A DNA stretch of 6,308 nucleotides, from contig JALGZO010000647.1 of the NCBI GenBank assembly GCA_025774865.1, positions 1 to 6,308 of the forward strand, in the 5' to 3' direction. Positions 2,573-6,308 of this stretch are shown piece by piece (positions within the stretch are counted from its first letter, which is position 1; the number at the start of each line of letters is the position of its first letter). The DNA is from a bacterium (GTDB taxonomy: Bacteria; ARS69). Made by a program: the position numbers and the translations under genes. The notes beneath the pieces were generated by a model. It was not told the origin of the DNA. It was given only the letters and a program-made list of their open reading frames with translations, and did not search any database.

Positions 2573-3358
2573 ATGGACGAGCGGCAGCTCCTCGAGGAGG
2601 CGGTTCGGATCGCCCGGGACGCCGGCGAGCTCTTGAAGGAGCACCGGACGCGGCCGGTGGAGGTTCGCCACAAGGGCGCGGTCGATCTCGTGACGCAGGC
2701 CGACCAGGCCTCGGAGGATTTGATCCTCTCGTCCATCCGGCGTCGATTCCCGGATCACGGGATCCTGGCGGAGGAGAGCGGTGACGCCGCTCGGGGGGAG
2801 CGCGGCGGCTACCAGTGGGTCGTCGATCCCCTCGACGGGACCACGAATTTCGCGCACGGGCTCCCGATCTGGAGCGTCTCGATCGGGATCCTCCGGGGCG
2901 GGGAGCCTCGCTGTGCCGTGGTGCTCGATCCGACTCGCGACGAGTGCTTCACGGCCCTCCGGGGGGCCGGGGCCCGCTGCAACGGGGAGCCGATCCGGGT
3001 CTCGGCGACGGAGGACCTGGAACAAGCGCTTCTCGTCACGGGTTTCCCCTACGACATCCGTACGAGCCCCGAGAACAACCTCGATTACTTCGAGAGATTC
3101 ATGAAGAGGTCACGGGCGGTCCGGCGGCTGGGGAGCGCCGCGATCGATCTGGCCTACGTCGCGTGCGGCCGATTCGACGGCTTCTGGGAGCTGAAGCTGG
3201 CCCCCTGGGATGTGGCCGCGGGCTGGCTTCTCGTCGAGGAGGCGGGCGGGGAAGTGACCCGGTTCGGCGGGGAGGCGTTCGAGCTGCACGCCCGCGACAT
3301 CGTGGCCGGCGGCGGCCGAATCGCGGCTTCGATCCGAGAGGTCCTGAGGGGCGCCTGA
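2573..3358 (+). CDS. suhB: Inositol monophosphatase family protein (SuhB-like)
   Basis: This 261-residue protein is full length for the family. It belongs to the Mg2+-dependent, Li+-sensitive phosphatases that hydrolyse inositol-1-phosphate and related sugar or nucleotide phosphates in the cytoplasm. The metal-binding motifs are intact: AEES at 66-69 (E67 ligand), WVVDPLDGTTNF at 82-93 (D85, D88, T90) and APWDVAAG at 210-217 (D213). The stretch VTGFPY (155-160) and RRLGSAAIDLAYVACGRFDGFWE (184-206, in two parts RRLGSAAIDLAYV and ACGRFDGFWE) follow the E. coli SuhB layout closely. A TTG at 2531 would add 14 residues but lies inside the terminator T-tract, and homologues begin near the ATG, so I chose 2573. 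No Shine-Dalgarno sequence precedes that ATG. The exact substrate is not decided by sequence: histidinol phosphatase, as in some family members, is an alternative. The symbol is at family level only. Confidence 0.92.
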   Translation: MDERQLLEEAVRIARDAGELLKEHRTRPVEVRHKGAVDLVTQADQASEDLILSSIRRRFPDHGILAEESGDAARGERGGYQWVVDPLDGTTNFAHGLPIWSVSIGILRGGEPRCAVVLDPTRDECFTALRGAGARCNGEPIRVSATEDLEQALLVTGFPYDIRTSPENNLDYFERFMKRSRAVRRLGSAAIDLAYVACGRFDGFWELKLAPWDVAAGWLLVEEAGGEVTRFGGEAFELHARDIVAGGGRIAASIREVLRGA

Positions 3359-3482: not shown

Positions 3483-6308
3483 ATGTCGAGACGCTTCCAG
3501 GCCGTTCGGCTCACTATTCTGCTGCTTCCGGCTCTGCTCGCGTCGTCGGCGCCCGCCCAATTCGGCAAGAACAAGGTCCAGTACAAGAGCTTCGAATGGC
3601 ATACGATCCAGACGGACCACTTCGACATCTACTACTACGAGGGCGAGGAGGAATCGGCCTTCCATGCGGCTCGGATGGCCGAGCGGGGGTATCGTCGGCT
3701 CTCCACGATCCTGAACCATGAGATCCCCGAACGCGTCCCCGTCATCGTCTACGCGTCCCACACCGACTTCCAGCAGACCAACATCTCCCCGGGGCTCATT
3801 CCCGAGGGGGTCGGCGGAATCACCGAGTACTCGAAGCGGCGGGTCTTCCTGCCCTTTACGGGCTCCTACGGCGAGTTCGACCACGTTCTCACGCACGAGC
3901 TCGTCCACGCCTTCCAGGTGGACATCCTGTTCGGGGTCACCGTGGACACCAACCCCTTCTCGTTCCAGCCGCCGCTCTGGTTCATGGAGGGGATGGCCGA
4001 GTACCTGTCCATCGGCGGCGTCGATCCCAATACGGAGATGTGGCTCCGCTGGTCGGCGCTGGAAGGGCAGCTGGTGCCCCTGCACTACATGTCGCGGATT
4101 TACGACATCCGGGTCTACCGGATCGGGCAGGCCGTTTTCGCCTTCCTCGGCGAGATGTACGGCGACGAGAAGATCGGCGAGCTCCTCCGCAAGACCGTCG
4201 CGCTCCGGTCGCTGAACCTCGCGTTCGAGCGGACGCTCGGCATGGACCTGGAGACTCTGGACGAGGAGTGGGAGGACTACGTCCGTCGGAAGTACTACCC
4301 GCAGATCGTCCACTTGAATCGGCCGGAACGCCACGGCCGCCGGCTTCTCAAGAAGAAGGGCTTCAACGGGATCCACCTCGCGCCGGCCCTGTCGCCGGAC
4401 GGCAGCCGCGTCGTCTACATCCGGGACGCACGCTTCTCGAAGGACATCGTCATGGCGTCGGCCATCGACGGGAAGATCCTGGGCAAGCTCGTCGAGGGAG
4501 AACGCTCCGGGGACTTCGAGTCGCTGCGCTACTTCTACACGTCGATCGGCTGGTCACCCGACGGAACCAGGATCGCCTTCCCGTCCAAGAAGGGCGGGGA
4601 GGACGTGCTCAACGTCCTGGATGTGGAGAAGCGGAAGGTCCTTCAGACGCTGGGCTTCGATTTCGACGCTCTCTACTCGCCCTGCTTCCACCCGAACGGG
4701 CGCCAGATCGTGTTTTCGGGGATCCGCGGGGGGAAGTCGGACTTGTTCCTGCTTGAGCTGCAGACTGGCGAGCTCACCCAGGTCACGGACGACCCGCACC
4801 TGGCGCGGGACCCCCAGTGGTCTCCAGACGGGCGGCGAATCGCGTTCGTCACCGATCGCGGTCCCGACACGGATCTCGAGAACCTCATCTTCGGGAAACC
4901 GAAGATCGCGCTGCTGGACGTTGAGACGGGAGCAATCACACTGCTGCCGGGGCAGGTGGGGAAGAACATCACCCCGCAGTGGGGCCCCGACGGCGACCAC
5001 ATCGCATTCGTGTCCGACCGCGACGGTATCTCGAACCTCTACGTTCAGAATCTGAACAACCGCCGCCTCTATCGCTTGACGAACCTCATCACGGGAGTGA
5101 CGGGGATCATCGAGTCGAGCCCACCCTTCTCGTGGGCCCGCGACGGTTCCCGACTCGTGTTCACGACCTTCATGGGAGACGGCTGGGAGCTCTACGAGAT
5201 CGACGACCCGCTCTCCAAGATGGTCGAGGTGGAGATGCCGGAGCCGATCGAGCAGATTGCGCAACGAGAGCGCGAGACGCTGGCGCCGTGGAGTCTCCCG
5301 GACCGGACGAGCGAGGACGTGATCCTCGCCACGAACGGCTCTGGTCAGGGCCACGCCACGACCGCCACGAACGGGTCACCGCTCGATTCGTCGGCGGAAG
5401 AGAAACCGACCCGGATCGCGGATCTCCTGGCGCCGTCGTCGCCGTCACTCACGATTGCGGGTCCGGGTCCGCTGGACCCGACCCCGTCGGTATCGGGGGA
5501 GGCGGACGGCGCGCCTTTCGCCCCGGAGCAGACCCAGCTGACTCTCTCTCAGGTCATGGCGGAGACCACGTACGATCTTCCCGAACGGGCGAGTCTGGAG
5601 TCGCAACCCTACCGGCTGAAGTGGGCGCCGGATTTCATCGGGGCGGCCCCGTTCTTCGCGTCCAACGTCGGATTCGCGGGTTCGGCTCAGATCGCGATTT
5701 CGGACATCCTGTCGAACCACGTCATCCACATCGGGGCGTCCGTCTACGGCTCGCTCTCGGACGCCGACCTCTTCTTGGGGTACACGAATCTCAAGCACCG
5801 GACGAACTGGGGAGTCTCCGCCTTCCAGTTCCGAAACGACTTCGGCATCTTCGCTGCTCAGGACCGCATCGGGTACCAGAGTCAGATCTACCGCGGCGTT
5901 CAGGGGATCGTGTCCCGTCCGTTCTCGAAGTTCAGCCGGATCGAACTGGCTGGCTACGGAGTCGCCGTCTCGCGGTCGGTGTTCGAGCAGAGCCACGTCG
6001 CCTTCGGCGCGCCCCAGCAGATCGACGCGGACATGCTGTACTACGCGGGGCCAGAGATCGCGCTCGTGACGGACAACGTGATCTACAGTTACTATGGCCC
6101 GGTGTACGGTCGCCGCGCGCGGATCTCGACCGCCCAAGCCTTCGGTGACGTTCAGTACAACACGACGATCGGGGACTACCGGCAATACTTCCCGCTCGGC
6201 AGCAGCGCCGTGTTCGCGCTCCGGCTCCTCGGCGGCGTGAGCCGGGGGAACACGCCGCAGATCTTCCGCATCGGCGGACCAGAGACGATTCGGGGGTTGA
6301 GCTACGGC
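3483..6308 (+). CDS. Outer-membrane fusion protein: zinc peptidase (MA-like), TolB-like beta-propeller, Omp85-type barrel (3' truncated)
   Basis: The frame is open for 942 codons to the right edge with no stop. Residues 1-25 are a signal peptide: basic MSRRFQAVR, a Leu-rich core, cleavage at APA-QF. Residues about 35-275 look like a peptidase-MA gluzincin domain: HELVH at 138-142 (two zinc-binding His and the catalytic Glu), then WFMEGMAEY with E169 as likely third ligand, then the YRIGQAVFAFL helix (from 212) and LGMDLETLDEEWEDYV (from 252). Six WD40-like/PD40 repeats carry SPDG-type turns at D306, D360, N405, D449, D503 and D554, enough for one six-bladed TolB-like propeller. Residues ~604-697 form a Ser/Thr/Pro/Gly-rich linker. 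The barrel starts near YRLKWAPDFIG (710), passes SDILSNH (740-746) and reaches the Omp85 L6 motif GGPETIRG (931-938). Predicted location: barrel in the outer membrane, other domains in the periplasm or outside. No POTRA domain is visible. Substrate is unknown. Confidence 0.88.
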   Translation, partial: MSRRFQAVRLTILLLPALLASSAPAQFGKNKVQYKSFEWHTIQTDHFDIYYYEGEEESAFHAARMAERGYRRLSTILNHEIPERVPVIVYASHTDFQQTNISPGLIPEGVGGITEYSKRRVFLPFTGSYGEFDHVLTHELVHAFQVDILFGVTVDTNPFSFQPPLWFMEGMAEYLSIGGVDPNTEMWLRWSALEGQLVPLHYMSRIYDIRVYRIGQAVFAFLGEMYGDEKIGELLRKTVALRSLNLAFERTLGMDLETLDEEWEDYVRRKYYPQIVHLNRPERHGRRLLKKKGFNGIHLAPALSPDGSRVVYIRDARFSKDIVMASAIDGKILGKLVEGERSGDFESLRYFYTSIGWSPDGTRIAFPSKKGGEDVLNVLDVEKRKVLQTLGFDFDALYSPCFHPNGRQIVFSGIRGGKSDLFLLELQTGELTQVTDDPHLARDPQWSPDGRRIAFVTDRGPDTDLENLIFGKPKIALLDVETGAITLLPGQVGKNITPQWGPDGDHIAFVSDRDGISNLYVQNLNNRRLYRLTNLITGVTGIIESSPPFSWARDGSRLVFTTFMGDGWELYEIDDPLSKMVEVEMPEPIEQIAQRERETLAPWSLPDRTSEDVILATNGSGQGHATTATNGSPLDSSAEEKPTRIADLLAPSSPSLTIAGPGPLDPTPSVSGEADGAPFAPEQTQLTLSQVMAETTYDLPERASLESQPYRLKWAPDFIGAAPFFASNVGFAGSAQIAISDILSNHVIHIGASVYGSLSDADLFLGYTNLKHRTNWGVSAFQFRNDFGIFAAQDRIGYQSQIYRGVQGIVSRPFSKFSRIELAGYGVAVSRSVFEQSHVAFGAPQQIDADMLYYAGPEIALVTDNVIYSYYGPVYGRRARISTAQAFGDVQYNTTIGDYRQYFPLGSSAVFALRLLGGVSRGNTPQIFRIGGPETIRGLSYG
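5327..5374 (+). repeat. 12-base in-frame direct repeat in the linker coding region
   Basis: CGCCACGAACGG occurs at 5327-5338 and again at 5363-5374, exactly 36 bases apart. In the fusion protein this gives ATNGS at residues 616-620 and 628-632, an imperfect 12-residue period in a low-complexity linker. It looks like a small local duplication in a region under weak constraint. Confidence 0.55.

Follow-up and report, generated by a model that had tools for sequence, protein, structure and literature searches.

Proteins of the Omp85 superfamily build outer membranes, and they usually, though not universally, carry at least one POTRA domain; TamA has three, and TamA-type proteins normally have POTRA domains. 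A survey published in 2014 (Heinz & Lithgow, PMC4104836), which includes Omp85 groups without POTRA domains and several subfamilies without a known job, named the WD40-Omp85 proteins, for which TolB was the closest fold and a role like that of BamA-BamB was proposed. In 2025, OMP-TolB-like or 'FhaC-TolB-like' proteins were proposed as the source of TolB (PMC12204202). Two further systems bear on what follows: TamA, which partners TamB at the outer membrane when proteins are assembled (phospholipids, too, may be passed by TamB; PMC11014939), and PlpD, a patatin-Omp85 protein with an enzyme and a barrel in one chain.

The DNA analysed here (the window, 6,308 nucleotides) is an entire contig, C651, of a fragmented genome, G000 (4.7 Mb in 785 contigs). 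As an earlier note on this DNA had claimed, one of its genes fuses a protease, a propeller and an Omp85 barrel in a single polypeptide, and on this the profiles and the model of a complete homologue agree. The features of the window are as follows.

2-2470, + strand: secreted 822-aa protein with a T9SS-type C-terminal sorting domain (TIGR04183, 2.1e-10)
2573-3358, + strand: inositol monophosphatase family gene (4.3e-74), upstream of the fusion in sister genomes too
3483-6308, + strand: 5' part of the protease-propeller-Omp85 gene, 942 codons; final 106 codons on contig C111
3483-3560, + strand: predicted signal peptide, residues 1-26 (MSRRFQAVRLTILLLPALLASSAPAQ), no lipobox Cys, as read from the sequence
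3561-4370, + strand: gluzincin-type zinc peptidase domain, residues 27-296 (Peptidase_MA_2, BSP and M9 profiles; model)
3894-3908, + strand: HELVH zinc-binding/catalytic motif, residues 138-142 (H, E and H invariant in alignments)
3987-3989, + strand: Glu169, presumed third zinc ligand (WFMEGMAEY; invariant in alignments)
4371-5240, + strand: six-bladed PD40/TolB-like propeller, residues 297-586 (PD40, TIGR02800, homologue model)
5241-5609, + strand: linker of low conservation, probably flexible, residues 587-709 (orthologue identity; pLDDT of the homologue model)
5610-6308, + strand: first part of the Omp85 16-strand barrel, residues 710-942 (rest on C111)
6291-6296, + strand: L6-loop R-G of the Omp85 motif (TIRGLSYG), residues 937-938 (conserved in alignments)

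The frame begins with the ATG at 3483 and stays open up to position 6308, where the contig ends. On contig C111 (L004, minus strand, down to 2824) it continues for 106 residues, ending in ...FTIGIDY, and then stops, which supplies the 3' end that was missing from the window. The final 90 bases of the window overlap the reversed contig C111 at 92%; overlap, frame and orthologues all point to a join of the two contigs, and the joined protein would be intact at about 1048 aa. Four sister genomes have orthologues, 60-68% identical along the chain and free of internal stops. The earlier note had held that a stop or frameshift a short way past the window would mark a degraded gene; neither is present, and both degradation and an assembly artefact are ruled out by the continuation on C111 and the intact orthologues. 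The gene is real and intact, and its architecture is near certain. (Within the contig overlap, which on the C111 side spans L004 3235-3146, an 11-base spacer, AGCCGGGGGAA, between the inverted arms GCGGCGTG and CACGCCGC at window 6232-6258 is inverted in C111; the contigs also differ at the final base. The inversion turns SRGN into FPRL and leaves the frame unbroken; the window's reading, SRGNTPQ, is backed by the orthologues' SNGNTPQ, SEGNTPQ and SDGETPQ. Either a strain variant produced by hairpin inversion or an assembly artefact would account for it, and it is perhaps the reason why the assembly breaks at this point.)

Profile searches, proposed in the earlier note, give a strong PD40 match on the truncated protein (5.4e-26 in five stretches, above the Pfam gathering score), with Peptidase_MA_2 (0.0009) and Omp85 (0.0047) each under gathering; the C111-encoded end alone matches Omp85 (PF01103) at 1.2e-7, above gathering. 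The weak peptidase and barrel matches are settled by this end together with the orthologues, the invariant residues and the models of a homologue and of the window's own protease domain. The HEXXH...E site is intact, as had been read from the sequence: H138, E139, H142 and E169 are invariant in three alignments (8/8, 74/74 and 42/42 sequences), the 74/74 retention being biased because that set was found by a scan with protease-derived patterns. The model of the window's protease domain (pLDDT 90.8) matches M9 collagenase (Z 17.8, 233 residues, 3.7 A), M30 lugdulysin (Z 17.0) and also M1 aminopeptidases. With its HExxH, downstream Glu ligand and gluzincin fold, the domain belongs with the gluzincins (clan MA); M9, M30 and M1 peptidases have the same fold, HExxH and downstream Glu, but are about 10-18% identical to it and are not fused to a propeller and barrel. 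Identity between orthologues is highest in the protease (71-80%), followed by the propeller (66-76%), the barrel (60-68%) and the linker (24-47%).

The TolB profile TIGR02800 matches the window protein at 1.1e-37, its 130 bits falling short of the 343-bit cut-off, and a family profile run against solved structures finds TolB (1e-30) and BamA (3e-12). A complete homologue, L020, which is 43-45% identical to the window protein, was modelled with AlphaFold2 (pLDDT 87.2, pTM 0.86). The model contains the peptidase, a six-bladed propeller and 16 barrel strands; it matches TolB (VIA Z 27.1, 242 residues, 2.2 A) and D. radiodurans BamA (Z 24.3, 306 residues, 4.0 A). The six PD40 blades of a TolB-like propeller are thus present as the earlier note had read them, and the barrel that it had expected past residue 710 is seen both in the C111-encoded end and in the model. 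Its L6 motif, TIRGLSYG, stands as well: the R (residue 937) is invariant in the 8-sequence alignment, R-G is invariant in the 74-sequence alignment, and R-G is kept in 41/42 sequences of the third, with one gap. A BamA-related C-terminal 16-strand barrel with an L6 motif of the (V/I)RG(F/Y) type places the protein in the Omp85 superfamily, and a TolB-like propeller N-terminal to that barrel is the WD40-Omp85 arrangement. POTRA domains are absent, as had been noted: none is matched by profile on the truncated protein, and in the L020 model none could fit between propeller and barrel. This interval (residues 587-709, about 120) is poorly conserved and apparently flexible, and L020 residues 612-671 form a disordered stretch (pLDDT <50). 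Because these flexible residues intervene, the propeller is not rigidly fused at the POTRA position, and it is less likely to be a rigid cap that stands in for POTRAs.

How far the fusion is already known can be judged against the systems introduced above. The 'metalloprotease' Omp85 subfamily of the 2014 survey is ruled out as the same thing, since it belongs to a different Pfam family (PF00149, which we take to be the calcineurin-like phosphoesterase family). The window family is likely to be the WD40-Omp85 group: both have a TolB-like propeller N-terminal to an Omp85 barrel and no POTRA (PMC4104836). The word 'peptidase' is absent from the survey's main text. The OMP-TolB-like proteins likewise share with the window protein an outer-membrane barrel and a six-bladed TolB-like propeller with a further domain next to it. 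That domain is given as a Rossmann fold, whereas the one in the window protein is a zinc peptidase (HExxH...E); the main text reports no peptidase in the OMP-TolB-like proteins, the word occurring once, for another clade (PMC12204202). Propeller-Omp85 proteins having been reported in 2014 and 2025 (PMC4104836, PMC12204202), the combination of propeller and barrel had been described before. TolB itself has the same propeller fold (Z 27.1, profile E 1e-37), but the window protein is below the TolB cut-off, has a peptidase as its other domain, is barrel-anchored and occurs alongside a separate TolB. TamA and TamL have the Omp85 barrel in common with it, and some members of the family are encoded with TamB (see below), but the window protein lacks POTRA domains and has a propeller and protease instead. 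PlpD also joins an enzyme, in its case periplasmic, to an Omp85 barrel, but the enzyme is a lipase instead of a protease, and PlpD has a POTRA domain. A literature search for 'peptidase MA' with Omp85 returned nothing, no report of TamB linked to WD40-Omp85 was found in the literature searched (in which few subscription papers were reached), and papers on TAM evolution and TamL contain 'WD40' 0 times and do not mention propeller-Omp85 proteins. Most of the architecture is thus known; what seems new within the literature examined is the protease, the TamB link and the two subfamilies described next.

As the earlier note had suggested, the family is widespread in Bacteroidota and Gemmatimonadota: a barrel-only query matches 148/150 Gemmatimonadota and 62/99 Bacteroidota genomes. 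Without exception, forty Gemmatimonadota matches that were sampled across the score list and picked by barrel alone carry the three domains in the order peptidase, propeller, barrel and retain H, E, H and E (40/40); among 20 Bacteroidota picked by barrel, 17 are intact and 3 have lost the motif. A FastTree phylogeny splits the sequences, with support 1.0, into subfamilies A (113 sequences) and B (77). Subfamily A includes the window gene and every fetched Gemmatimonadota sequence (L206 and L207 are Gemmatimonadota); both subfamilies occur in the window's genome, where the B copy is at C75, and in two relatives. In a pooled set of 190 aligned sequences, in which some genes were fetched twice and from which L039, taken in a wrong frame, was left out, 184 retain all four catalytic residues; the six exceptions are three Bacteroidota genes, each fetched twice (L193/L208, L194/L209, L195/L250). 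These three, all of subfamily B, have lost the whole motif (no HExxH) and kept the architecture; proteolysis is therefore dispensable in some members, which suggests that a binding role outlives catalysis. All five genomes of the window's phylum have a separate BamA over the TIGR03303 cut-off and a separate TolB that matches nearly the whole profile (304-330 bits, just below the 343 cut-off). Since both have genes of their own, the fusion is neither BamA nor TolB, and replacement of either is ruled out.

A survey of gene neighbourhoods, also proposed in the earlier note, separates the two subfamilies. (In these GC-rich loci ORFs were called heuristically, and antisense ORF clusters were disregarded.) In 28 loci from several phyla, TamB lies upstream of a subfamily B gene on the same strand; no other arrangement was seen. 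TamB adjoins the fusion in Eisenbacteria (L059, L065), Krumholzibacteriota (L088, L090) and, in the window's phylum, at the G004 B paralogue, 55 bp away; 23 Bacteroidota loci, which are not independent, have the order TamB-RNase R-fusion. The Pfam TamB match is direct for L065 (7e-34), L212, L216, L222, L229 and G004:C63, and the others were found via an iterated profile. Among loci with flank, TamB accompanies 26/51 B and 0/54 A genes (p 8e-11, uncorrected for descent). Five other subfamily B genes are followed by MlaE-MlaF; neither TamB nor Mla genes neighbour any A gene examined. In the 785 pieces of G000, TamB was not found. G001, G003 and G004 each have a different Omp85 gene (YaeT profile) that shares a contig with a TamB gene at a distance of no more than 5 kb, which resembles the TamA-TamB arrangement; given this other Omp85 near TamB, the B pair of G004 looks like a second TAM-type module.

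The neighbours of subfamily A give no clear function. The window's phylum retains the order sorting-domain protein, IMPase, fusion, GWxTD; in Gemmatimonadota, RsfS and a SPOR-domain protein flank the fusion. The sorting-domain neighbour has 46-51% identical counterparts in the same place in three sister genomes, and SprA is matched in 5/5 genomes of the phylum, over the cut-off in 4. Other neighbours may be recorded here. GWxTD proteins, for which we know of no established function, recurrently adjoin the fusion in the window's phylum and at one Bacteroidota locus (L196, L197, L205, L004); beside the GWxTD gene, L004 2-1198 (+) encodes a protein that is Tyr/Trp-rich and then Lys/Arg/Pro-rich, with no Pfam match. 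At L060, 1344-6989 (+), Tc-complex-like domains (PF18276) are encoded upstream of the KSB1 fusion gene. Two of the dead-peptidase Bacteroidota genes have PssA and the T9SS sortase PorU as neighbours no more than about 3 kb away, and a T9SS plug gene lies 3-91 bp from the fusion, convergent with it, in L204, L233, L239, L241, L243, L246 and L248.

The reading we prefer, with a probability of roughly 0.4, is that the fusion acts in the manner of TamA, as the point in the outer membrane where a TamB-type assembly or lipid bridge ends, and that its protease clears clients. The chain would be directed to the periplasm by its signal peptide and would insert in the outer membrane through its C-terminal 16-strand barrel, which has the L6 motif and the terminal aromatic. 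The propeller and zinc protease would remain periplasmic on a flexible tether, a placement suggested by Omp85 topology and by PlpD. An inner-membrane-anchored bridge of the TamB/AsmA type would then deliver outer-membrane proteins or lipids to the fusion, the propeller serving as a docking surface in place of POTRAs and the protease trimming or removing stalled clients. The B proteins would take TamA's place; we infer from sequence relationship that the role may extend to the window's subfamily A, whose members probably do a related job with another partner. Partner, substrate and protease activity are likewise what we infer, and the TamB association is one of gene linkage, not of physical interaction. 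Several points count against a TamA-like role: the POTRA domains usual in TamA-type proteins are missing, the window gene belongs to A, in which no gene examined has TamB or Mla beside it, G000 yielded no TamB, and the peptidase is dead in three B genes.

Less likely is that the barrel is mainly an anchor, as in a PlpD-like protein: the protease would act on envelope proteins and the propeller would bind the substrate, with no insertase or transport function. PlpD is an Omp85 protein whose N-terminal enzyme is retained in the periplasm (PMC11116518), and an emphasis on the enzyme would suit both a protease that is the best conserved domain (71-80%) with an invariant active site and a subfamily A without a transport-type neighbour. 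However, an anchor has no obvious need of the conserved L6 R-G, members with a dead protease retain propeller and barrel, and subfamily B is linked to TamB and Mla. The fusion is still less likely to be the self-contained machine that the earlier note had pictured, or a BepA-like quality-control factor beside BAM, in which the propeller would capture unfolded outer-membrane proteins, the protease degrade or trim them and the barrel insert them without TamB. A protease, a propeller and an insertase-type barrel on one chain would suit this, as would a general function shared by 148/150 Gemmatimonadota genomes, and in E. coli the periplasmic Zn-protease BepA does act at the BAM complex (PMC8423444); but a separate BamA is present in 5/5 genomes, no Bam gene is among the recurrent neighbours identified, and the proposal of self-containment is less favoured because the TamB and MlaE/F neighbours of B point to a partner-dependent role.

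Two secretion roles are much less probable. That the fusion is an accessory of type IX secretion, handling proteins with a C-terminal sorting domain, is very doubtful, even with the window's 822-aa neighbour holding its place in three sister genomes, SprA in 61/62 fusion-bearing Bacteroidota as against 16/37 others, PorU 2-3 kb from two dead-protease genes and the plug gene beside the fusion in 7 loci. Descent confounds the Bacteroidota association, the plug gene and the fusion are on opposite strands, and 16/61 Gemmatimonadota have the fusion without a SprA match, so that co-occurrence is not strict; SprA being dispensable, type IX secretion is a weak alternative. Most improbable of all is a type Vb/Vd secretion pore, whose barrel would export a client or its own protease domain. 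The Omp85 fold and the 2014 proposal on enzyme-bearing Omp85 proteins (PMC4104836) speak for it, but the enzyme domain of PlpD is periplasmic, not exported (PMC11116518), about 560 folded residues including the propeller would need to cross, and no secreted partner gene was recognised.

If the TamA-like reading is carried further, the family may constitute a second kind of TAM, a tentative proposal that we hold somewhat less firmly than the reading itself: an Omp85 partner of TamB/AsmA-like bridges in which the POTRAs have been swapped for a TolB-like propeller and which brings a protease of its own for clearing. Such a partner would be present in almost all Gemmatimonadota and frequent in related phyla, the dead protease of one branch having become a pure binding domain. 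Taken together, a conserved zinc protease, near-universality in one phylum and TamB in one branch give the family a testable function. The finding also bears on the 2025 proposal for the origin of TolB, since what adjoins the propeller here is a protease and not a Rossmann fold.
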